From a virus: a stretch of DNA of 20,201 bases. The DNA lies in the IMG/VR virus record IMGVR_UViG_3300042486_000468, positions 1 to 20,201 of that record, one strand, 5' to 3'. The translations under genes and the position numbers were made by a program. Positions 2,593 through 19,906 of the stretch are shown in pieces. Each line of letters begins with the position of its first letter. The first letter of the stretch is position 1. The notes under the pieces were generated by a model. It searched no databases, was not told the origin of the DNA, and was given only the letters and a program-made list of their open reading frames with translations.

Positions 2593-2600
2593 TAAAATGC

Positions 2601-2629
2601 TTGACTTTTTGTCCGAAATGTGCTATAAT
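2601..2629 (+). promoter_or_regulatory. Strong sigma70-type promoter (copy 2)
   Basis: TTGACT (2601-2606), 17-bp spacer, TATAAT (2624-2629), extended -10 TGC. The predicted transcription start is near 2636. TTAACAACTC lies about 24 bases upstream of the -35, in the same relative place as in copy 1. Because the promoter overlaps the in-frame ATG at 2597, that ATG cannot be the start of the ATPase gene. Confidence 0.9.
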
Positions 2630-2659
2630 AGCAACATGGAAAATAAAAAAGGAGAACAA

Positions 2660-3562
2660 ATGGACGTTAAGGTGAAGTTCAACTCTAGCAAGAATCGCTT
2701 TGAGGGTTTTGTTGACGGTAAGATGGTTTCACGCTCAAGGCACGAATCATATGTAAAAGACCAGTTAGCTAAGCTAGGCTTCGTCGTTGGTAACAATGTA
2801 AACAATGCTACTCAAAAGGTATCAGAGTTTGGTATCAATAAACGCTTCGAGTTCGTAGAGCAAATGGTCGGTATGGTCAGCAAGAAAACGATTGCTTCAG
2901 CGATTATTACAGGTCAGGGTGGCCTAGGCAAAACCCATACAGTATTGGGTTCTCTAGAAAAGAGTGGCTACAAAAACGTAACAGACCTCGCAGAGTTCGA
3001 GCTTGGTACATTAGTAAATACTGCGAAGTCGTATCGCATTATTAAGGGCTTCAGCACAGCAAAGGGCTTGTATCGCACGCTGTTCGAAGGTAACAATATG
3101 GTACTGGTGTTCGATGACTGCGACAGTGTGCTCAAAGACCCAGTAGCGCTGAATTTGCTTAAGGGTGCATTAGACTCATACGGCGAGCGCTACATTAACT
3201 GGAATGCAGACATACGTGATCCAGACCTCCCAAGGTCATTTAAGTTTACAGGCAGTATCATTTTTATCAGCAACATGGATCTAGATCGTATCGACCAAGC
3301 AGTTAAGTCTAGAGCTTTTTGCGTAGACCTCAGCATGACACAAGAGCAAAAAGTAGAGCGCATGGAAGTTCTAGTTGAGTCTAGAGAATTTTTAGAAGAC
3401 TTTAGTATCACGGTAAAGCGCGATGCAATTGCATTCATCAAAGCGAATCAAGACCATGTATCGAATTTGAGTCTTCGTACGCTGATAGCAACTACCAAGA
3501 TCGCTGCAGAAGGTGGTGATTGGAAGCAGTTGGCAAAGTATGTTCTGACACAGGGAGCGTAA
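2660..3562 (+). CDS. AAA+ ATPase
   Basis: A 300-aa protein of the AAA+ P-loop ATPase class. Walker A is GQGGLGKT (residues 85-92), Walker B is MVLVFDDCD (147-155), sensor-1 is IIFISNMD (200-207), and an arginine-finger-like SRAF has its Arg at 218. A short beta-rich N-terminal region (residues 1-45) precedes the ATPase core. Such phage ATPases often remodel DNA or protein complexes; the partner here is unknown. I chose start 2660 because AAAGGAG sits 7 nt upstream, while earlier in-frame ATGs (2597, 2636) lie in or at the promoter. The gene at 3564 follows after one base and is probably co-transcribed. Confidence 0.9.
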   Translation: MDVKVKFNSSKNRFEGFVDGKMVSRSRHESYVKDQLAKLGFVVGNNVNNATQKVSEFGINKRFEFVEQMVGMVSKKTIASAIITGQGGLGKTHTVLGSLEKSGYKNVTDLAEFELGTLVNTAKSYRIIKGFSTAKGLYRTLFEGNNMVLVFDDCDSVLKDPVALNLLKGALDSYGERYINWNADIRDPDLPRSFKFTGSIIFISNMDLDRIDQAVKSRAFCVDLSMTQEQKVERMEVLVESREFLEDFSITVKRDAIAFIKANQDHVSNLSLRTLIATTKIAAEGGDWKQLAKYVLTQGA

Positions 3563-5552: not shown

Positions 5553-5813
5553 ATGAATACAATGAAGAAACAAGCACTACTTGATGTGATTAAATTTATT
5601 GGAATCTCAATCGCAGGTGGTATCGGCGGTGCTGTTCTGATCAATTTAGTTCCGCTGGAATATATTGGCATAGGTGTATGTATTATTGGTATTGGATTTG
5701 CGCTAAAAACTATGTATAATATCCGCGTAGAATACTACGAAAGGCAAGCAAAGTATCAAGAAATTTATAAGGATTTGAAAATTGAACAGACAAATACTAC
5801 ACCTATTAAATGA
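5553..5813 (+). CDS. Two-helix membrane protein (86 aa)
   Basis: Two glycine-rich hydrophobic segments (about residues 13-31 and 36-54, including IGISIAGGIGGAVLI and IGIGVCIIGIGFAL) are followed by a charged cytosolic-looking tail with several Tyr. I chose 5553 over the ATG at 5538 because GGAG lies 6 nt upstream of it. The 3' end overlaps the next gene by 32 bases. Function unknown. Confidence 0.6.
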   Translation: MNTMKKQALLDVIKFIGISIAGGIGGAVLINLVPLEYIGIGVCIIGIGFALKTMYNIRVEYYERQAKYQEIYKDLKIEQTNTTPIK

Positions 5814-6306
5814 TGCTGGATTCCACATGCCTGAAATGGAACGGTTAGGGATTGAGGAGAAGTTTGACAAGTTCGCTGAGCTGATTGTTCAAGAGTGTAT
5901 TCGAACCTGCGAATCATTGCCGTTAATAGGACCTTACAAAGATGTTCAGGATGCTACTCTTAAAGATGTAGTAACTCAGATTAAAGAACACTTCGGAGTT
6001 GAATCCATGCCAACCATTAACTATAAAGCTCTCTATAACTCTGAATTAGCATTGAGGCTAGATCTGGAGACGGAAGTGAGCTTTCTTAATAACTTAATTA
6101 ATAAGCAAGAGTACTCTACTCCAGAAAAGATTGCTGAAGAACGAAAGAAGCCGCATACAGTCTGTCATAGAGATGTTCAGGAAGCAATTGATAAGACAGT
6201 CAAGTACCTTGGTGAGATCCGGCCTGACGTATTGAGGGTATCTGCTGCTGAGCACTTGAAGCAGCTGTATAAGATTCAGATTGCGATCTTGGGTAGGATT
6301 GAATGA
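5782..6306 (+). CDS. FAELIV/HFGVE-family protein with extra domain
   Basis: A 174-aa protein whose first 75 residues match the repeated family of this window: MNRQILHLLNDAGFH, then KFAELIVQECI, then IKEHFGVE. Residues 76-174 are an unrelated-looking helical extension found in no other copy here. The start is TTG at 5782. The family N-terminus begins exactly there and AAGGA lies about 8 nt upstream, so the first in-frame ATG (codon 16) would remove conserved residues. It overlaps the upstream gene by 32 bases. Function of the family is unknown. Confidence 0.7.
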   Translation: MNRQILHLLNDAGFHMPEMERLGIEEKFDKFAELIVQECIRTCESLPLIGPYKDVQDATLKDVVTQIKEHFGVESMPTINYKALYNSELALRLDLETEVSFLNNLINKQEYSTPEKIAEERKKPHTVCHRDVQEAIDKTVKYLGEIRPDVLRVSAAEHLKQLYKIQIAILGRIE

Positions 6307-6563
6307 ACCGTGTTCTAATTGTATGTCATAACTATGATTCTGCAGAGAGACGTTTTCGTGATATGATACAACAGAACGAGAGTGTATTAGTCAGGGCATG
6401 TAATGCTCAGCTGACTATTGAATTGGGGGATACTCAGTATAAGTTTATATCATCACATGCATCAGATAGAATAATAGGCCAGACATATCAGAATGTACTC
6501 ATAGATGAGATGGTAGAGATGACTGCTGAACAGACTGCTATGATAATGTCAAGGAAGAGATAA
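6303..6563 (+). CDS. Truncated helicase/terminase-like ATPase fragment
   Basis: An 86-aa protein with MNRVLIVCHNYDSAERRF, a basic middle and IGQTYQNVLIDEMVEMTAEQ. The VLIDE strand looks like a Walker B (DExx) core, and the preceding part resembles the segment between motif Ia and motif II of terminase or helicase ATPases. There is no Walker A, so it cannot hydrolyse ATP alone in the usual way. It could be a captured fragment used as a decoy or regulator; this is inference. ATGA overlap with the upstream gene. Confidence 0.55.
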   Translation: MNRVLIVCHNYDSAERRFRDMIQQNESVLVRACNAQLTIELGDTQYKFISSHASDRIIGQTYQNVLIDEMVEMTAEQTAMIMSRKR

Positions 6564-6564
6564 T

Positions 6565-6774
6565 ATGAATGAAAGAATTAGGGAGCTGGCTAGTTGTAAT
6601 GAGCGTGTTCAAAATTTCTTTGAGACCGGTCCTGTGCAACGTGCGGCCATTGAGCAGTTCGCCGAGTTGATTGTGCGGGAATGTGGCGTAGCATTGAGTC
6701 CTATGCTCCGTGATATGATTAGTCGTGGACAGGCATATGATATGATTAAAGAACATTTTGGAATCGAATCGTGA
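6565..6774 (+). CDS. FAELIV/HFGVE-family small protein
   Basis: A 69-aa family copy with MNERIRELAS, QFAELIVRECG and MIKEHFGIE. AAGGAAGAGA precedes the ATG. The variable centre (ALSPMLRDMISRG) differs from the other copies. The stop overlaps a GTG start as GTGA. The function of this phage family is not known; it is soluble and helical in appearance. Confidence 0.75.
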   Translation: MNERIRELASCNERVQNFFETGPVQRAAIEQFAELIVRECGVALSPMLRDMISRGQAYDMIKEHFGIES

Positions 6775-6869
6775 ATCGAACTGAAATCTCAATACTAATT
6801 GTCAGCACCATCGGTCTTGGGTTAGGCCTGTTGTGGTTGGCTAATATTTTAGGAAGGTTTGGACTATGA
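6771..6869 (+). CDS. Tiny membrane protein with GTG start (32 aa)
   Basis: GTG at 6771 overlaps the previous stop and the frame ends in ATGA with the next gene. The 32 residues are one hydrophobic helix (ILIVSTIGLGLGLLWLANIL) with a polar N-terminus. The double overlap makes translation likely despite the size. Function unknown. Confidence 0.5.
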   Translation: MNRTEISILIVSTIGLGLGLLWLANILGRFGL

Positions 6870-7138
6870 ACGAAGAACTAATTAAAAAATTACACGATCA
6901 AGCGTGGGGTGAAACTCACGAAAAAGCAATTGCTGTTACGAAAACCCCTATTGATTTTCAGAAAGTTCTTAGAGAACGATTCGCCGAGTTGATTGTGAAA
7001 GAATGTATTGACAAGATTACAACCTATGATTTGGTTCCTGGGCATTCAGCCAAGTGGGAAGATATCTATGATATTCACGCTAGGTTGCTACAAGACTTGG
7101 CCGAAGATTTGAAAGAACATTTCGGAGTTGATGAATGA
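6866..7138 (+). CDS. FAELIV/HFGVE-family small protein
   Basis: A 90-aa family copy with MNEELIKKLHDQA, RFAELIVKECI and LKEHFGVDE. It contains the 27-bp DNA block (6980-7006) that is identical in the copy at 8132. AGGAAGG lies upstream in the preceding frame. Coupled by ATGA on both sides. Function unknown. Confidence 0.75.
   Translation: MNEELIKKLHDQAWGETHEKAIAVTKTPIDFQKVLRERFAELIVKECIDKITTYDLVPGHSAKWEDIYDIHARLLQDLAEDLKEHFGVDE
6980..7006 (+). repeat. 27-bp exact direct repeat (unit 1)
   Basis: Identical to 8228-8254. It encodes FAELIVKEC in two paralogous genes and could serve as a recombination point between copies. Confidence 0.85.
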
Positions 7139-7353
7139 AACCCACTACTGATTTTGTATTGGTCAGAGGACCACGCACAGATGAAGATAACGACCCTATT
7201 GATATTCTTATTCGTGTTGTGAGAAACACCGATACCTTCGATTTTACTAAGTATTCATTTTTGAGATTATCCAAAACTGCTGAGTCTGAAATGGAAGAGT
7301 GGGTACCAACTAAAGAATTAAACATATACAAGAAAGCATTTAAGGTGCAATGA
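7135..7353 (+). CDS. Hypothetical small protein (72 aa)
   Basis: A 72-aa acidic protein, beta-rich in the first half (DFVLVRGPRTDEDNDPIDILIRVVRN), with EMEEWVPTKELNIYKKAF near the end. No family recognised. It is coupled by ATGA at both ends, so it belongs to the polycistronic run. Confidence 0.6.
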   Translation: MKPTTDFVLVRGPRTDEDNDPIDILIRVVRNTDTFDFTKYSFLRLSKTAESEMEEWVPTKELNIYKKAFKVQ

Positions 7354-7514
7354 TGGGATGGAAATATGAGGTAAATGTATGGGATGGTCCTGTAGATGGT
7401 GACTTTAAGTGGTTGCAAATTTATGCTGGACCAAGTATAATCAAAGCAATCTACAATATATGGTGGGCTAAACGTAACGGCTGGAAGTGTATAAAACTGG
7501 AGTATCGACCATGA
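7350..7514 (+). CDS. Small Trp-rich phage protein (54 aa)
   Basis: A 54-aa basic protein: YEVNVWDGPVDGDFKWLQIY, then IIKAIYNIWWAKRNGWKCIKLEYRP. Short proteins of this layout (beta-hairpin, helix, C-terminal strand) occur in other phages; the role is unknown. ATGA overlaps at both ends support it. The second ATG (7353) could be the start. Confidence 0.58.
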   Translation: MMGWKYEVNVWDGPVDGDFKWLQIYAGPSIIKAIYNIWWAKRNGWKCIKLEYRP

Positions 7515-7684
7515 ACGAAGAAATGCAAGAGATGATTCGCCAATATATCAAGGATAACTTGTCTCTTGACGTTAGAACAGATTCAATACACAATGGTGGC
7601 ATGAATAGTGGTTCATGCTATACTGAACATCATACTATCCAACTTGTACTTGATGGCGAAATAATTAGTGAGGTATCATTATGA
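7511..7684 (+). CDS. Small phage protein, IRQYIKDNL type (57 aa)
   Basis: The product begins MNEEMQEMIRQYIKDNLSLDVRT and ends QLVLDGEIISEVSL. It looks like a helix followed by a beta-sheet, a recurrent phage small-protein pattern of unknown function. I chose 7511 because it overlaps the previous stop as ATGA; an upstream in-frame ATG at 7487 lies inside the previous gene without a ribosome site. Confidence 0.6.
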   Translation: MNEEMQEMIRQYIKDNLSLDVRTDSIHNGGMNSGSCYTEHHTIQLVLDGEIISEVSL

Positions 7685-7881
7685 ACGAAAAAGTTGAGGC
7701 GATGTGGCAGGATCCTAGATTCCAATTACTGGCTGATTTAGACCGATTGTTGGATAGTAGCAAGATATGGGCTGGCATGTCCTGGGAGTATCATCCTATC
7801 CATCCAGTCAAGTATCGTCCTATGGCAGAACGAGTTCGTGCAGAGATGGGTAAACTTTATGCGGAATATGGAGTTGAATGA
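7681..7881 (+). CDS. Hypothetical small protein (66 aa)
   Basis: A 66-aa protein starting MNEKVEAMWQDPRF and ending YAEYGVE. Both ends recall the MNE... and GVE ends of the repeated family, but the central FAELIV box is missing. It may be a divergent relative or an unrelated gene that recombined at the shared ends. ATGA overlaps on both sides. Confidence 0.58.
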   Translation: MNEKVEAMWQDPRFQLLADLDRLLDSSKIWAGMSWEYHPIHPVKYRPMAERVRAEMGKLYAEYGVE

Positions 7882-8135
7882 TGAACGAACGAATTCGAGA
7901 ACTTGCTGAACAGGCTAGACAGTATGCTATTGAAACAATCAAAAACTCTCAAGACCCCACAGAATGGTCAACTGCCGTGTTTGAACAAAAGTTCGCCCAG
8001 TTGATTGGTCAAGAATGTTTGGCACTAGCGGATAGTATTCGTGATGAGTGTGATAAAGATGGTGAGAATCAACAAGCATTGGGTGCTGCTTGGGTAGGAA
8101 TAGCAATAGCACGACATTTCGGAGTTAAAGAATGA
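7881..8135 (+). CDS. FAELIV/HFGVE-family small protein
   Basis: An 84-aa copy with MNERIRELAEQARQY, KFAQLIGQECL (Gln and Gly replace the usual Glu and Val) and IARHFGVKE. I prefer the second of two adjacent ATGs (7881) because the family begins MNERI; 7878 would add one Met. Middle region IRDECDKDGENQQALG is unique. Coupled by ATGA to the next copy. Confidence 0.72.
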   Translation: MNERIRELAEQARQYAIETIKNSQDPTEWSTAVFEQKFAQLIGQECLALADSIRDECDKDGENQQALGAAWVGIAIARHFGVKE

Positions 8136-8338
8136 ACGAACGAATTAGAAAATGCTGTGATGGTGCCGGATTGGATAGTAATTGGAAACCGGGTTTTGAC
8201 AGTATCTATGGCCAACAATTAGAAAAGTTCGCCGAGTTGATTGTGAAAGAATGTGCCAATATCGCCAATGCTGGTGTTGATCCTGCTGAATCGCATTTGC
8301 CTGGTGATGATATTTTAGAACATTTCGGAGTAGAATAA
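8132..8338 (+). CDS. FAELIV/HFGVE-family small protein
   Basis: A 68-aa copy with MNERIRKCCDGAG, KFAELIVKECA and ILEHFGVE. The vicinal cysteines at residues 8-9 are unusual for the family. It carries the second unit of the 27-bp exact repeat. ATGA overlap upstream, TAATG downstream. Function unknown. Confidence 0.73.
   Translation: MNERIRKCCDGAGLDSNWKPGFDSIYGQQLEKFAELIVKECANIANAGVDPAESHLPGDDILEHFGVE
8228..8254 (+). repeat. 27-bp exact direct repeat (unit 2)
   Basis: Identical to 6980-7006. Shorter or mismatched versions of the block lie in the other seven family copies. Confidence 0.85.
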
Positions 8339-8514
8339 TGTGGAATAAATTTAAAAGTTTGCCTCTTACTGTAAAGATGGCCGGTGTGTTTTTGACTCTC
8401 CTGATCAGTGCAGGAGTAGTGACCATACCGTATGTGGTAATTCCTATTCTAGTGGCTATGTTAGGTATCGTGTCGGGTATTCGAATCGCTGTTTATTTGG
8501 CGGATGGAAAATGA
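8338..8514 (+). CDS. Small two-helix membrane protein (58 aa)
   Basis: A basic N-terminus (WNKFKSLPLTVK) and two hydrophobic helices (about residues 14-31 and 33-49), ending AVYLADGK. It begins in a TAATG overlap and ends in ATGA. It is similar in size and layout to the protein at 5365, but I see no clear identity. Function unknown. Confidence 0.58.
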   Translation: MWNKFKSLPLTVKMAGVFLTLLISAGVVTIPYVVIPILVAMLGIVSGIRIAVYLADGK

Positions 8515-8729
8515 ATGAACGAATTAGAGAAGTTTGGATCAAAGCGGCTAGAGAAGATTCTAGTGAAACGTGGGATTCGCAAGAACAATTTATTGAACGA
8601 TTTGCCGGGTTGATTGTCAAGGAATGTATTGGCATTGCTCAGGATCGTGCAGCATTTGATTGGGCTTCACCTAATGATGTCAACCATATTATTAACGAGA
8701 TTAAAAACCATTTTGGAGTTGAAAAATGA
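8511..8729 (+). CDS. FAELIV/HFGVE-family small protein
   Basis: A 72-aa copy with MNERIREVWIKAA, RFAGLIVKECI (Gly for Glu in the core box) and IKNHFGVEK. It is coupled by ATGA on both sides. The middle (DRAAFDWASPNDVNHI) is unique. Function unknown. Confidence 0.74.
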   Translation: MNERIREVWIKAAREDSSETWDSQEQFIERFAGLIVKECIGIAQDRAAFDWASPNDVNHIINEIKNHFGVEK

Positions 8730-9046
8730 ATGAACTTACACAAGACGAACATAAGATACTAATTGATGCTATTCACGATTCTGCCACTGTCATCCATAAA
8801 GGACAAAGAATGAACGAACGAATTCAAGAACTAATGATAGAAGCCGGTAAAACTATACCAGGCGACAAACACATTGACGCTGACTTTTGCAAAAAGTTCG
8901 CCGAGTTGATTGTGCGTGAATGTTATGAACATTGTAAAGGACAAGTACTTGACAAAGAGGTTGCTGATACAAATGAACTAACATATAACGATGCTGTCAG
9001 TGATTGTGCTAATGGTCTATTACAACATTTTGGGGTTGAAGAATGA
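8726..9046 (+). CDS. FAELIV/HFGVE-family protein, extended N-terminus
   Basis: The frame from 8726 gives 106 aa. Residues 29-106 are a full family copy (MNERIQELMIEAGK, KFAELIVRECY, LLQHFGVEE). The first 28 residues (MNELTQDEHKILIDAI...) are extra. The family start at 8810 has its own ribosome site (AAAGGA about 6 nt upstream), while 8726 overlaps the previous stop as ATGA. Both starts may be used, or the 5' part may be the remnant of another small gene fused in frame. Confidence 0.68.
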   Translation: MNELTQDEHKILIDAIHDSATVIHKGQRMNERIQELMIEAGKTIPGDKHIDADFCKKFAELIVRECYEHCKGQVLDKEVADTNELTYNDAVSDCANGLLQHFGVEE

Positions 9047-9255
9047 GTGACTATGATATGAGTATTCATACTAATCCTGATGCAATGGCATGGGCCAAGT
9101 TCTTTAGAGAATTGAATCCTGATTGTAATGTATCAGATGAAACTATGTTAGGCTGGTTCGCTAATGCAATGATGGCGATGCATGATCATCTAGTATTGAA
9201 GGGTAATCCAATCAATGGTGATCATGCCGAATATATGTTGAAAGGAAAAGAATGA
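9043..9255 (+). CDS. Conserved small phage protein (70 aa)
   Basis: MSDYDMSIHTNPDAMAWAKF, then MLGWFANAMMAMHD, then a C-terminal INGDHAEYMLKGK. I recognise this layout from small proteins of many other tailed phages, where it is unnamed. It is helical and soluble. Coupled by ATGA at both ends. Function unknown. Confidence 0.68.
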   Translation: MSDYDMSIHTNPDAMAWAKFFRELNPDCNVSDETMLGWFANAMMAMHDHLVLKGNPINGDHAEYMLKGKE

Positions 9256-9395
9256 TTACATGGTATTGGCATAAGTGCATGCAGTTCATTGGATACAGGA
9301 AGGTGTGGTACTTTCCTTCCAAGTACATGCCAATGAGTGACTTCTGGATGTGGGAATATCGTCCAGATCTACCTAAAGGAGTATACAAAGCATGA
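9252..9395 (+). CDS. Small Trp/Met-rich protein (47 aa)
   Basis: A 47-aa basic protein with many aromatic residues (MITWYWHKCM, VWYFPSKYMP, DFWMWEYRP). It is linked to both neighbours by ATGA. Its composition resembles the 54-aa protein at 7350. Function unknown. Confidence 0.52.
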   Translation: MITWYWHKCMQFIGYRKVWYFPSKYMPMSDFWMWEYRPDLPKGVYKA

Positions 9396-9952
9396 ACAAA
9401 AAAGAAACGTGTAATGGTATGCCTGCGTATGAGGGGCCGCTATCAAAAAATCAATCATTGGCGCAGTCTGAATTGGAATTCAATCCTGACTGGGACGCAA
9501 TGGCTGTAATGGTTGAGGAACAGCAGCGCATGGCAAAACGTATTGAAGAGTTAACTCAATTAGTAACCAGTCAAGGCATTCGTCTCATGGACGCAGAAGC
9601 GCAGCCTGAACCGGAGCCGGTGGCGTACATCAACGTACAAGATCGCAAACTTGAATGGGCAAAACTTACTAAATGGGAAACGCCGACAGTGGTCAAGATG
9701 GATAAGGTTCCGCTTTACACCGCTCCCCCACTACCTGATTATAACATCAAATTAGAACGTATGCGTGAGCTGGTAAAGATTCAGGGAAATAATGGTAACT
9801 GGAACTATGATCCTTATATGCATGGGATGTATAATGGAATGGAATTCATGCTTGCCATGTTAGAGGATAGAGAACCTAATTACAGGGCTAAGCCAGAAGT
9901 ATGGCTATATGAACTCCCACCCGATAAGGTGGTAGGAGGGACTAGTGAATAA
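9392..9952 (+). CDS. Mosaic phage accessory protein (Ea22-like parts)
   Basis: A 186-aa protein built from recognisable phage pieces. A helical segment around residues 35-68 (VEEQQRMAKRIEELTQLV) is followed by PEPVAYINVQDRKLEW...VPLYTAPP (about 73-114), the VPLYTAPP cassette seen in Ea22-type and other lambdoid accessory proteins. The C-terminal MRELVKIQGNNGNWNYDPYM and HGMYNGMEFMLAMLEDREP block is also common in phage proteins. This arrangement suggests recombination of short modules. Function unknown. GTAGGAGG near its 3' end serves the next gene. Confidence 0.65.
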   Translation: MNKKETCNGMPAYEGPLSKNQSLAQSELEFNPDWDAMAVMVEEQQRMAKRIEELTQLVTSQGIRLMDAEAQPEPEPVAYINVQDRKLEWAKLTKWETPTVVKMDKVPLYTAPPLPDYNIKLERMRELVKIQGNNGNWNYDPYMHGMYNGMEFMLAMLEDREPNYRAKPEVWLYELPPDKVVGGTSE

Positions 9953-10115
9953 AAAATATGTAGATCTGCAAGAGAAGGTAGTCAATGCGGTATTAGAGAT
10001 GCAGAAAGGATCGTCATTGAAAGACTTTTTAACAGATGATGAGATTGAAGAGGCATTATCAATGTTTGCTGATGTGTTGATTTCTTTAGGTACTTTGATT
10101 GAGGTAAAAGAATGA
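9945..10115 (+). CDS. Small acidic helical protein, GTG start (56 aa)
   Basis: GTG at 9945 is preceded by AGGAGGG, one of the best ribosome sites in the window, and the frame runs to an ATGA overlap with the next gene. The 56-aa product (MNKKYVDLQEKVVNAVLEMQ..., ending TLIEVKE) is acidic and all-helical. No family recognised. Confidence 0.62.
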   Translation: MNKKYVDLQEKVVNAVLEMQKGSSLKDFLTDDEIEEALSMFADVLISLGTLIEVKE

Positions 10116-10345
10116 ACGAACGACTCAAACAACTTGCTCTCGAGGCAGGTTATCTTCCAGATAGTTTTGGTATAGGTCATTGGGATATGCCAGAGTGTAA
10201 AAAGTTTGCGGAATTGATTGTCGCTGAATGTATGCGTATGTGTGAAGTCACAGAGATGAGTTTTGTGACTCATGATTGTGATGTTGAAGCATCGGGTGCA
10301 ATTACTGTTAAACAATTTATTGCTGAACATTTTGGAGTTGAATGA
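10112..10345 (+). CDS. FAELIV/HFGVE-family small protein
   Basis: A 77-aa copy with MNERLKQLALEAGY, KFAELIVAECM and IAEHFGVE. The centre (DCDVEASGAITVKQF) resembles the lead-in to the last helix in other copies. Coupled at both ends by ATGA. Function unknown. Confidence 0.74.
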   Translation: MNERLKQLALEAGYLPDSFGIGHWDMPECKKFAELIVAECMRMCEVTEMSFVTHDCDVEASGAITVKQFIAEHFGVE

Positions 10346-10452
10346 TGCCAGAATATAAAATGGAAATGTGGTGGGTAGGTATATTTGCAATTGGCAAAGG
10401 TCTAACCTATTTGCTGGCTATAGCCTCAATGATAAAATACTTGTGGAGTTGA
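10345..10452 (+). CDS. Tiny membrane protein (35 aa)
   Basis: MPEYKMEMWWVGIFAIGKGL... with one hydrophobic helix through residue 28. Adjacent ATGs at 10342 and 10345 both overlap the previous stop. Its 3' end (TGGAG) gives the ribosome site for the gene at 10456. Function unknown. Confidence 0.48.
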   Translation: MPEYKMEMWWVGIFAIGKGLTYLLAIASMIKYLWS

Positions 10453-10455
10453 AGA

Positions 10456-10830
10456 ATGAGCCAATTAAGTAAAGCAATTATAGCCACAGACACAGGTGAG
10501 CGCAAATATATTCCACATAAGTTATCACCTCTGTTCCAAGATATATTTTCAGCCAAAGAAGAAATACAACAAGTTACAACTCCTACAGATATTGGTAAGG
10601 TATATCGTATTGGATGTAAGATAGGGTCGCAGGCAGTAGTTTCTGATTATGATTATGAGGATGCGCTTGAGAATGCTATAATGCGAACCAAGCGTCAGGT
10701 GATTGAAGGTGTATTTGGTGAGTTTAGACCTCACTTCAGACGTATAGAAAAAGCCATTTATGACCATGATTACAATGAGGCAGGACGTTTGCTACATGAG
10801 ATGGAACATATTATGTTTGAACCGGAGTGA
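10456..10830 (+). CDS. Conserved phage protein (124 aa)
   Basis: A 124-aa charged protein. About residues 60-120 (VSDYDYEDALENAIMRTKRQ, VFGEFRPHFRRIEKAIYDHD) form long helices of a type I have seen in other phage hypothetical proteins. The N-terminal half (ATDTGERKYIPHKLS, QVTTPTDIGKVYRIGCKIGS) looks beta-rich. GGAG sits 7 nt before the ATG. No enzymatic motif. Function unknown. Confidence 0.65.
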   Translation: MSQLSKAIIATDTGERKYIPHKLSPLFQDIFSAKEEIQQVTTPTDIGKVYRIGCKIGSQAVVSDYDYEDALENAIMRTKRQVIEGVFGEFRPHFRRIEKAIYDHDYNEAGRLLHEMEHIMFEPE

Positions 10831-10925
10831 TGATGAATAACTACGATCTAGGAATGACGTTATTTGTAATAGCATTGGCTGCTTGGTGCTTTTTTCTTGG
10901 ATACTTGTATGGGAGAAGTGAATGA
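10830..10925 (+). CDS. Tiny membrane protein (31 aa)
   Basis: The frame begins in a one-base overlap with the previous stop (a second ATG is at 10833) and ends in ATGA with the next family copy. Product: one hydrophobic helix (MTLFVIALAAWCFFLGYLYG). Function unknown. Confidence 0.48.
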   Translation: MMNNYDLGMTLFVIALAAWCFFLGYLYGRSE

Positions 10926-11173
10926 ACGAACGAATTGGAGAACTTGCTGAACAGGCTAAACAACATTCTCTTGATGCTATGATTAAAATCACAGACCGAG
11001 AACAAGCATTGAAAGTGTATTCAGAATCGTATGATACAAAGTTCGCCGAGTTGATCATACAAGAATGTATTACCGCCATATATAAATCGCAAAATATAAC
11101 ACCGGGATTTTTAATAAATCTTCCGTCAGATCAATTGGTGCTGCAAATTAAAAAACACTTTGGAGTAGACTAA
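10922..11173 (+). CDS. FAELIV/HFGVE-family small protein
   Basis: The ninth and last copy, 83 aa: MNERIGELAEQAKQH, KFAELIIQECI and IKKHFGVD. It is closest at the N-terminus to the copy at 7881 (ERIxELAEQAxQ). TAATG overlap with the next gene. Function unknown. Confidence 0.75.
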   Translation: MNERIGELAEQAKQHSLDAMIKITDREQALKVYSESYDTKFAELIIQECITAIYKSQNITPGFLINLPSDQLVLQIKKHFGVD

Positions 11174-17966: not shown

Positions 17967-18848
17967 ATGATAGTTATAGATTTTAATCAAACCGCCATTT
18001 CTAATTTGATGGCGGAAGTAGGTGGTCGAAAAGATATTGACATTGATGTACCGTTACTTCGACATATGATTTTAAATTCGATCAGAGGATATAATCAAAA
18101 GTTCGGAGCAAAATATGGTGAAATGGTTATCGCCTGCGACAATCGAAACTATTGGCGTAGACAAGAGTTCCAATATTATAAAGCCGGCAGAAAAAAAGCT
18201 AGAGAAGAATCTGGTCTAGATTGGAAATTAATTTTCGAAGCGTTAACTATGATTCGGGAAGAACTGCATACATATTTTCCATATAAAGTTATTGACATTG
18301 ACGGGGCGGAAGCGGATGATGTCATTGCGGTACTTGCAGAGTGGTCACAATCAAATGACATGGAGACTTTATTATTCAGAGAACCAAAACCATTTTTGAT
18401 TCTTTCAGGTGATCACGATTTTATTCAATTACAAAAATGGAAAAACATTCATCAATATTCTCCAATTCAAAAGAAATTTATTAAACCGGATATAAGCCCT
18501 GAACAATATATTTTTGAGCATATCATAAAAGGTGATAAGGGTGACGGTATTCCTAATGTACTGTCTGCAGATGATAGTATTGTAACCGGTACTAGACAAA
18601 AGTCTATTATGCAAAAGAAAATGGATATTTGGTATAAAGATAAAGATCAAATGCCGCAGGATATAGAATTTGCAAAGAATTATGAACGCAATAAGATGTT
18701 AGTTAGTTTTGAGCACATCCCAGCACCGGTAAAAGAAAACATTATAAATAGTTATGTTGGTCAGCCGAATAAAGATAAAAGCAAACTATTAAATTTTTTC
18801 ATTCAAAACAAAATGAAAAACATGATGGAATTAATCGAGGAATTTTAA
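17967..18848 (+). CDS. rnh: T4-type RNase H (5'-3' exo/flap nuclease)
   Basis: A 293-aa protein of the T4 RNase H/FEN family (T4 protein: 305 aa). It removes RNA primers and short DNA from lagging-strand fragments at the fork. Metal-site motifs are in order: VIDFNQT (Asp5), IACDNRNYWRR (Asp58), FQYYKAGRKKAREESGLDW (68-86), DGAEADDVIA (Glu115, Asp117, Asp118), LSGDHDFIQL (Asp149, Asp151) and KGDKGDGIPNV (Asp190, Asp193). AGGAAAT sits before the ATG. The next gene starts at the base after its stop and has its ribosome site inside the end of this gene. Confidence 0.95.
   Translation: MIVIDFNQTAISNLMAEVGGRKDIDIDVPLLRHMILNSIRGYNQKFGAKYGEMVIACDNRNYWRRQEFQYYKAGRKKAREESGLDWKLIFEALTMIREELHTYFPYKVIDIDGAEADDVIAVLAEWSQSNDMETLLFREPKPFLILSGDHDFIQLQKWKNIHQYSPIQKKFIKPDISPEQYIFEHIIKGDKGDGIPNVLSADDSIVTGTRQKSIMQKKMDIWYKDKDQMPQDIEFAKNYERNKMLVSFEHIPAPVKENIINSYVGQPNKDKSKLLNFFIQNKMKNMMELIEEF
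18743..18750 (+). promoter_or_regulatory. Possible T4-type late promoter
   Basis: A second exact TATAAATA, inside the 3' end of the RNase H gene and 98 bases before the start of the next gene. It could be chance in AT-rich coding DNA or a late promoter for the gene at 18849. Confidence 0.3.
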
Positions 18849-19352
18849 ATGAAAACAACCGTACCCCAGGTGTTTGAAGAAGTAGAAAAATCAGTTACAC
18901 GAGAAACAAAAATTAAAGTGTTGCGAGCATATGATGCAATGGTTGTGAGAGGAATTCTTCGAATCAATTTTGATCCTATGATTAAAATGGATTTGCCCGA
19001 AGGCGAACCGCCATTTAAGAAAGATACATCAATTCCGGCAGGATATTCTGAGACAAATTTGTTTTCAGAATTTCGTCGCTTTTATATTTGGCTAAATCGC
19101 GATGTCAATCTTTCTAAACAACGAAAAGAACAACTATTTATTCAACTATTGGAAGGCATCCATTGGTCAGAGGCTGAAGCAGTTTGTTTAGCAAAAGATA
19201 AAAAGCTACAAACTAAATACAAATCAATTACTGAAGATTTGGTTAGAGAAGCATATCCTGAGCTTTTACCTGTACGAGAAGCTGTAGCAGAACCAGTTAT
19301 TAAGGTAAAGGCTGCTCCGTCAAAAAAGAAGGTTTCTTTGAACGCTTCCTGA
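18849..19352 (+). CDS. DUF6433-like conserved phage protein (167 aa)
   Basis: A 167-aa protein resembling the DUF6433 family of T4-like cyanophages and marine phages. Conserved stretches are LRINFDPMIKMDLPEGEPPFKK (37-58), GYSETNLFSEFRRFYIWL (64-81), LSKQRKEQLFIQLLEGIHW (87-105) and EAEAVCLAKDKKLQTKYKSIT (107-127). GAGGAA precedes the ATG within rnh. The zero-frame C-terminus after residue 160 (KVSLNAS) is not family-like. A slippery sequence at codons 158-160 offers a -1 extension described separately. Function unknown; the position beside rnh suggests replication or late-transcription context. Confidence 0.82.
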   Translation: MKTTVPQVFEEVEKSVTRETKIKVLRAYDAMVVRGILRINFDPMIKMDLPEGEPPFKKDTSIPAGYSETNLFSEFRRFYIWLNRDVNLSKQRKEQLFIQLLEGIHWSEAEAVCLAKDKKLQTKYKSITEDLVREAYPELLPVREAVAEPVIKVKAAPSKKKVSLNAS

Positions 19353-19372
19353 CCTGGTTCAAAGAAGAACCT
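19322..19372 (+). promoter_or_regulatory. Candidate programmed -1 frameshift signal
   Basis: The heptamer A AAA AAG (19322-19328) lies in the correct phase of the 18849 frame. AAAGG (19307-19311) is 10 nt upstream, as an internal Shine-Dalgarno-like stimulator. Downstream, TTCTTTGAAC (19334-19343) pairs perfectly with GTTCAAAGAA (19357-19366) around a 13-nt loop. AGGT (19330-19333) pairs with ACCT (19369-19372) across a 2-nt bulge. The spacer to the main stem is 5 nt. The arrangement copies that of the bacterial dnaX frameshift site. Confidence 0.7.
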
Positions 19373-19483
19373 ATACCGGAACCAACTGAAAAATGGTCAG
19401 ACGTAGGAACGATGCCTCCAGATCCCCAATATGATGCAAGAGATTTTAACATAAAGCAATACAGAGCATTTGACAAATATTGA
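19328..19483 (+). CDS. -1 frame extension of the DUF6433-like protein
   Basis: After a -1 shift at 19322-19328 translation continues for 51 codons: EGFFERFLTWFKEEPIPEP, then TEKWSDVGTMPPDPQYDARD, ending YRAFDKY. Joined to residues 1-160 this gives a 211-aa protein. The -1 frame has a TAA stop (19300-19302) shortly before the slip site. It has no ATG before 19409, so it is not an independent gene. Composition (aromatic, Pro, Asp, Lys) is protein-like. The alternative is a single-base error in the A6 tract, in which case the 211-aa form would be the only product. Confidence 0.65.
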   Translation, partial: EGFFERFLTWFKEEPIPEPTEKWSDVGTMPPDPQYDARDFNIKQYRAFDKY

Positions 19484-19525: not shown

Positions 19526-19906
19526 ATGTCTATGCATTTGGTTGGGCCTTGGTTATCTTCTACGGGCAAGAAAAAAGGCAAGCAAAAATATCGAAATTCC
19601 GAGCAAGCAAAAAAAGCTCGGGATCTCGAATCTAGTTGGAATCAAATTTTAGCCTCACATGGTGCGGCTCCTGTCAAAGCTAAAAAGCCATTTAAGCAGC
19701 TCTCCTATCAGTTAGCTGTACCTGAAGATCGTAGTACAAAACACATTAAAAGTCTAGATACGGGTCATGTAGGTGCTGTCACAATACGTGCGCCTATGAA
19801 GTATACTGGCGATAAAATTTTAGGTATCGGAACAATGCATAAGTCTAATGCGGTTCCCATTTTTACAGACCAAGAAGCAAAAGACATTTCTAGTATGAGG
19901 CGATAA
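19526..19906 (+). CDS. Conserved T4-like small basic protein
   Basis: A 126-aa basic protein. The N-terminal MSMHLVGPWLSSTGKKKGKQKYRNSEQAKKARDLESSWNQIL has helix-forming basic residues; the C-terminal KYTGDKILGIGTMHKSNAVPIF...AKDISSMRR is the most distinctive part. I recognise this architecture from T4-like phages, where the protein is unnamed. No catalytic motif is visible. Only a weak GGA precedes the ATG. The stop overlaps the next start as TAATG, so the two genes are coupled. Confidence 0.72.
   Translation: MSMHLVGPWLSSTGKKKGKQKYRNSEQAKKARDLESSWNQILASHGAAPVKAKKPFKQLSYQLAVPEDRSTKHIKSLDTGHVGAVTIRAPMKYTGDKILGIGTMHKSNAVPIFTDQEAKDISSMRR

Follow-up and report, generated by a model that had tools for sequence, protein, structure and literature searches.

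Does the DUF6433 gene near the end of this phage sequence encode a single protein, or do some ribosomes change frame shortly before its stop codon and make a second, longer one? The window, by which we mean the whole stretch of 20,201 nucleotides that was analysed, carries this gene on the + strand at 18849..19352, where the zero frame specifies a 167-aa termination product. The protein is a member of DUF6433, since it scores 99.1 bits against PF20025 (E 2.1e-28), for which the Pfam cut-off is 38.9, and it also matches phrog_461 (E 5e-40). Its upstream neighbour is rnh (17967..18848, +), a T4 RNase H-type 5'-3' exonuclease recognized by PF02739, PF09293 and phrog_107, and its downstream neighbour is a gene of unknown function assigned by a PHROG match to phrog_27048 (19526..19906, +). 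Rfam and tRNA scans of the 20,201-base window returned no matches. The terminase encoded in a related 222-kb contig is ~50% identical to the terminases of Pelagibacter phage Mosig, Methylophilales phage Melnitz and cyanophages, and on that basis these phages are T4-like. The contigs come, apparently, mostly from fresh water.

Elsewhere in the window, positions 2597-3562 encode a probable AAA-type ATPase (phrog_1250, E 6e-57, with a weak match to the clamp-loader family phrog_168); this gene is distant from the rnh-DUF6433 pair. Nine small + strand ORFs within 5782-11173 (starts at 5782, 6565, 6866, 7878, 8132, 8511, 8726, 10112 and 10922) have FAxLIxxEC ... HFGV in common, and they apparently form an array of divergent paralogs whose function is unknown.

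Layout of the proposed frameshift cassette

The slippery heptamer A_AAA_AAG is located at 19322..19328 (+), in phase with the ATG at 18849. The zero-frame stop codon, a TGA at 19350..19352 (+), follows 28 nt after the heptamer start, a spacing that is kept in nearly all relatives. The -1 frame is open from 19328 to 19483 (+) for 51 codons and a terminal TGA (19481-19483), and encodes a tail (EGFFERFLTWFKEEP...QYRAFDKY) that is supported by homologs, dN/dS and alignment. Upstream, the -1 frame is closed by a TAA at 19301..19303 (+), and any shift has to occur 3' of this codon. No ATG, GTG or TTG occurs in the -1 frame of the window ahead of the zero-frame stop. Termination gives the 167-aa protein, and slippage would join 160 residues to the 51 of the tail for a product of 211 aa.

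Putative stimulators flank the heptamer on both sides. Downstream, a hairpin with its 5' arm at 19334..19343 and its 3' arm at 19357..19366 (both +) forms a perfect 10-bp stem that starts 5 nt after the heptamer and can be lengthened to 14 bp if a small bulge is allowed. Its folding energy in the window is -14.7 kcal/mol (z -2.1 against dinucleotide shuffles, and about -2 against synonymous shuffles). Upstream, AAAGG at 19307..19311 (+), 10 nt 5' of the slip site, is a possible Shine-Dalgarno-like stimulator, and its predicted pairing with the anti-Shine-Dalgarno sequence is weak, at about -3 kcal/mol (-3.2 to -3.3).

An earlier note, made without database searches, had described these four elements (the in-phase heptamer, AAAGG, the hairpin, and a protein-like -1 frame closed by TAA and lacking a start) and had inferred two products; all four and their positions held, and its coordinates, phase, spacing and the arithmetic of 167 and 211 aa were right. 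It had also named five or seven As in the raw reads as grounds for refutation. The same protein with the same A6G is found in four other contigs from different metagenomes, and an in-phase run of six or seven As is present in every relative with the heptamer (class A, below), so a read error in the A6 tract is very unlikely.

Conservation of the slip site, hairpin and tail

All 80 IMG/VR relatives of the DUF6433 gene have the same cassette layout. Among 257 loci, a set that includes many overlapping fetches of the same contigs, 245 contain both core and tail, and in every one of the 245 the frame of the tail is -1 with respect to that of the core. The 12 loci without a tail belong to named marine phages and other cultured or single-cell phages. 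Reduction to distinct junctions left 64 genes, which we refer to as class A; each has an in-phase A_AAA_AAG or A_AAA_AAA (A_AAA_AAR), nearly always 28 nt before the zero-frame stop. These sequences are metagenomic and share ancestry, and so are not independent trials. Recurrence of the layout in 64 distinct relatives places it far beyond chance. The codon preceding the two lysines is GCA, GTA, CCA, TCA or ACA: the residue varies and the third base is A without exception, whereas the same residues elsewhere in these genes have A in third position in 24-51% of cases. This indicates that selection acts on the heptamer and not on the protein.

Purifying selection acts on the tail, which is a real protein segment. 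Past the zero-frame stop, median dN/dS between close pairs is 0.196 in the -1 frame, versus 0.854 and 1.429 in the other two frames (the core has 0.048 in close pairs), and where both frames overlap the -1 frame is the more constrained. An alignment of 29 tails, 45-96% identical to that in the window, shows no variation at K, F, K, W, G, D, R and AFD positions, and the conserved -1 frame residues KK..F.R are encoded ahead of the zero-frame stop. The best-conserved part is the C-terminal YRAFDK and not a helix. A structural model of the tail has two short helices, at low confidence (pLDDT 65). No significant match to the tail was found in Pfam, PHROGs, PDB sequences or named phages; bacterial genomes (GTDB contigs) yielded none either, and the tail therefore gives no clue to the host.

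Support for the hairpin comes from a synonymous-codon control, which was used because covariation is only weak to modest, the core pairs being nearly invariant. The 48 nt after the slip site were folded and set against 300 versions in which the -1 frame had been recoded with synonymous codons. Across 44 distinct regions the mean z was -2.04, and the fold at the post-slip window was below the shuffle mean in all 64 class A genes; control windows upstream and further downstream had mean z values of -0.66 to +0.5, and the window at -0.66 overlaps the hairpin. The encoded FFER...WFKE alone thus does not account for the hairpin. The evidence for the Shine-Dalgarno-like element is weaker, with a family mean of -4.6 kcal/mol against -3.2 for shuffled sequences, and it is not significant gene by gene (per-gene median p 0.29).

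Searching with a more distant member identified two lineages in which the heptamer is replaced. In class C, made up of L306-L309 and the more distant L311, an in-phase C_CCT_TTG is preceded by GTC, TCC or GAC, so that here too the residue varies and the third base is fixed; support for its hairpin is mixed (z -2.95 to +0.64). Class B (L245, L249, L258, L259 and L261) has no heptamer. Its zero frame ends in GTA AAG and a stop, which contains the tetramer A_AAG, and a hairpin after the stop has z values of -2.1 to -4.3. Directly after A_AAG, the class B tail frame opens with an ATG that overlaps the DUF6433 stop (TAATG or TGATG). Expression of this tail by tetramer slippage or by reinitiation, as a natural alternative to the heptamer, is possible; the overlapping ATG means that the tail could be a separate protein in class B, which would weaken the case that the fusion is important. 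In E. coli, A_AAG outperforms the other tetramers, A_AAA_AAG ranks with the best heptamers, and C_CCU_UUG is one of the heptamers that exceed 0.1% without stimulators (PMC4066793).

In a tree of the core, the genes that have the tail cluster together, separate from cyanophage DUF6433 (89/85), and class B falls within class A; the alignment takes in divergent C-termini, and the fine branching is therefore tentative. We infer from sequence alone that the slip motif was swapped among A_AAA_AAR, C_CCT_TTG and A_AAG, with the -1 relation kept throughout and the hairpin kept in most cases. The most distant tail candidate, on the 52.8-kb contig L311, has both A_AAA_AAA and C_CCT_TTG in phase, and its diverged -1 frame (WKKKEIPEV..DPWLPYYDIPKYDDYYTFK) was undetected by the tail profile.

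The reading of the locus as recoding, which the earlier note had proposed to check by aligning homologs, is strongly supported, as the alignment shows a conserved slip site with both frames kept open. A zero-frame-fused tail without a slip site, which would have refuted it, was not seen in any locus examined. Of the three stimulatory signals it had listed, the heptamer and, through the synonymous-codon control, the hairpin held strongly; AAAGG held in position, with weak pairing in the window and only modest enrichment in the family. The other slip motifs of sister lineages and the ligase-type DNA-binding domain of DUF6433 had been missed.

A ligase-type fold in DUF6433

By computation, DUF6433 is shown to have the fold of the DNA-binding domain of DNA ligases, an assignment that is new here. 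The AlphaFold model of the core has a pLDDT of about 84-96 up to residue 140 (85 for the model), followed by a disordered C-terminal linker. In a Foldseek search with this core, the top 27 PDB hits are all DNA ligases. The DNA-binding domain of T4 ligase (6dt1/5wfy) leads with a probability of 1.00, but its E-value is modest (2e-3); Pmar-Lig entries, a Rhizobium phage ligase, human ligase 1 and archaeal ligases come next. Profile comparison matched DUF6433, from one end to the other, to the DNA-binding domain of the ligase that these phages encode, at 80-93% probability, and the score of 37 compares with at most 23 in 60 column shuffles. Given the fold and the profile match, the best reading is that DUF6433 is a stand-alone protein homologous to the DNA-binding domain of ligases.

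The 167-aa protein has no match to DNA_ligase_A_M, the nucleotidyltransferase domain with the catalytic KxDG lysine, and in the absence of a catalytic domain it is not a ligase. We also considered whether DUF6433 might supply the DNA-binding domain missing from a split ligase. This was rejected, because an N-terminal DNA-binding domain is already part of the ligases examined in related contigs; a complete DNA ligase was present in six of six related contigs tested, about 2-3 kb from DUF6433. The adjoining rnh encodes the type of exonuclease that removes Okazaki primers in T4 (PMC3012046).

In several cyanophages DUF6433 is annotated as 'DNA ligase', for example at 2474-2923 of L091 (DSL-LC02). 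Homology to the ligase DNA-binding domain explains such labels, which fit the domain and still mislead, as these proteins lack the catalytic domain. The assignment provides a first functional lead for DUF6433, a family present in hundreds of cyanophage genomes.

Proposed mechanism, rival explanations and known systems

We consider it very likely (probability about 0.88) that DUF6433 undergoes programmed -1 ribosomal frameshifting, with the reservations that no frameshift product has been measured and that the lysine tRNAs of the host are unknown. Ribosomes translating DUF6433 would reach A_AAA_AAG and pause at the hairpin 5 nt further on, and a fraction would slip back by one base. The majority would terminate seven codons on, yielding the 167-aa form, and the rest would read 51 codons in the -1 frame to yield the 211-aa form. 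Both would share a body with the stand-alone ligase-type DNA-binding fold, to which a lysine-rich flexible linker would join the tail. The short form is inferred to bind duplex or nicked DNA, for which there are no binding data. The long form would add a docking peptide made up of an amphipathic helix (FERILTWFK) and the conserved end YRAFDK, and we infer that this tail may tie a set fraction of the protein to a partner in the replication machinery. The shift by the ribosome, the ratio of the two forms, DNA binding and the docking role are all inferences that computation has not shown.

One candidate partner is the sliding clamp. The polymerases of these phages end in QATLEGLFG, which contains the clamp-type motif LEGLFG; the first tail helix in classes A and B resembles it, following h-x-x-[WLIFY]-[FL] (ILTWF, VIGLF, LTRFF, MEWFF), and a gp45-type clamp is encoded in related contigs. 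We rate clamp binding low, given that YRAFDK is the best-conserved part and that the class C helix is a poor fit to the h-x-x-h-F pattern, and it remains a guess without binding data that we would not quite favour. A bolder reading, which is no more than possible, is that frameshifting controls how much of a stand-alone, ligase-type nick-binding protein is free and how much is tethered to the clamp, and that the slip motif that does so was swapped during evolution. If this were true, the gene would encode a regulator of Okazaki repair or late transcription that is made by way of recoding.

The rival that survives best accepts frameshifting and holds that the tail does not dock on the clamp, binding instead the DUF6433 core or another replication protein. 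Conservation of YRAFDK above that of the helix and the poor fit of class C speak for it, and the likeness of the class A and B helix to the polymerase LEGLFG and the gp45-type clamp of related contigs speak against it; on balance we can neither favour nor dismiss it.

Transcriptional slippage is very unlikely. Under this explanation RNA polymerase would add or drop an A at the run of six or seven As, fusing the frames in some mRNAs. The slip site is indeed homopolymeric, and transcript slippage does occur in some bacterial dnaX genes, at stretches of about nine As or longer (PMC3711429). However, many of the genes, including that in the window, have only six As followed by G; slippage of this kind needs no phase, yet the phase of A_AAA_AAR is fixed; and the hairpin sits exactly downstream of the slip site. 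In addition, sister lineages use C_CCT_TTG or A_AAG without a long homopolymer, and transcript slippage therefore cannot explain the whole family.

Equally hard to sustain is expression of the tail as a separate small gene by termination-reinitiation at the zero-frame stop. Class B, which lacks the heptamer and has TAATG or TGATG where the frames meet, is in its favour, and coupling and frameshifting are regarded as interchangeable (PMC3711429). Against it, no class A gene (0/64) has a -1 frame ATG near the stop, ATG, GTG and TTG are all absent in 38/64, the conserved KK..F.R precede the zero-frame stop, and the heptamer is fixed. Finally, a recent frame-breaking mutation or a sequencing error that split a continuous gene, for which only the broken frame itself argues, is all but excluded and refuted by the homologs, as 245 loci from many metagenomes all show the -1 relation, the tail is under selection and no zero-frame fusion was found.

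Programmed frameshifting would thus operate in a probable DNA-replication gene across many contigs of uncultivated T4-like phages. The well-studied frameshifts of tailed phages are mostly in genes for virion assembly. An ordinary gene caller would overlook the -1 frame tail. Natural swaps of the slip motif within one orthologous gene make this a good system for determining what frameshift signals must keep. In the literature searched, which mostly excludes subscription journals, DUF6433 was unmentioned and programmed frameshifting was never paired with cyanophages. The mechanism is of a known kind and, as far as the searchable literature shows, DUF6433 is a newly added family.

Among known systems, the tail assembly chaperone G/GT is similar in that a tailed-phage gene shifts to -1 near its 3' end, so that part of the product carries a C-terminal extension. 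Unlike G/GT, DUF6433 adjoins rnh and the phrog_27048 gene, lies upstream of a DNA ligase in related contigs and has a ligase-type fold. A tail assembly chaperone frameshift was therefore rejected: the neighbours do not include a tape measure gene, and Pfam and PHROGs gave no tail-chaperone family match for the gene. T4 gp30 (PDB 5wfy, 6dt1) shares with DUF6433 the all-helical fold of its DNA-binding domain, with a colinear profile match over the whole domain, whereas DUF6433 is without the nucleotidyltransferase and OB domains and is accompanied by a separate complete ligase in related contigs. The DUF6433 proteins of marine cyanophages (T4-GC 313; for example S-PM2 and P-SSM4) belong to the same Pfam family and their genes adjoin rnh in several phages, but in the relatives examined they end at about WGGRS and have neither a slip site nor a -1 tail, and the lysine-rich linker is missing as well. 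The gene that follows in cyanophages, T4-GC 314, was considered as a stand-alone homolog of the tail, and was rejected as its translation is not similar.

The closest parallel in layout is E. coli dnaX (tau/gamma), which likewise has A_AAA_AAG, a stem-loop ~5 nt downstream and a purine-rich element ~10 nt upstream, and from which, as proposed for DUF6433, two replication-linked products with a shared N-terminus arise. DUF6433 differs in being an unrelated protein encoded by a phage gene with a weaker upstream element, and in the outcome of the shift: slippage gives the shorter product in dnaX and would give the longer one in DUF6433.
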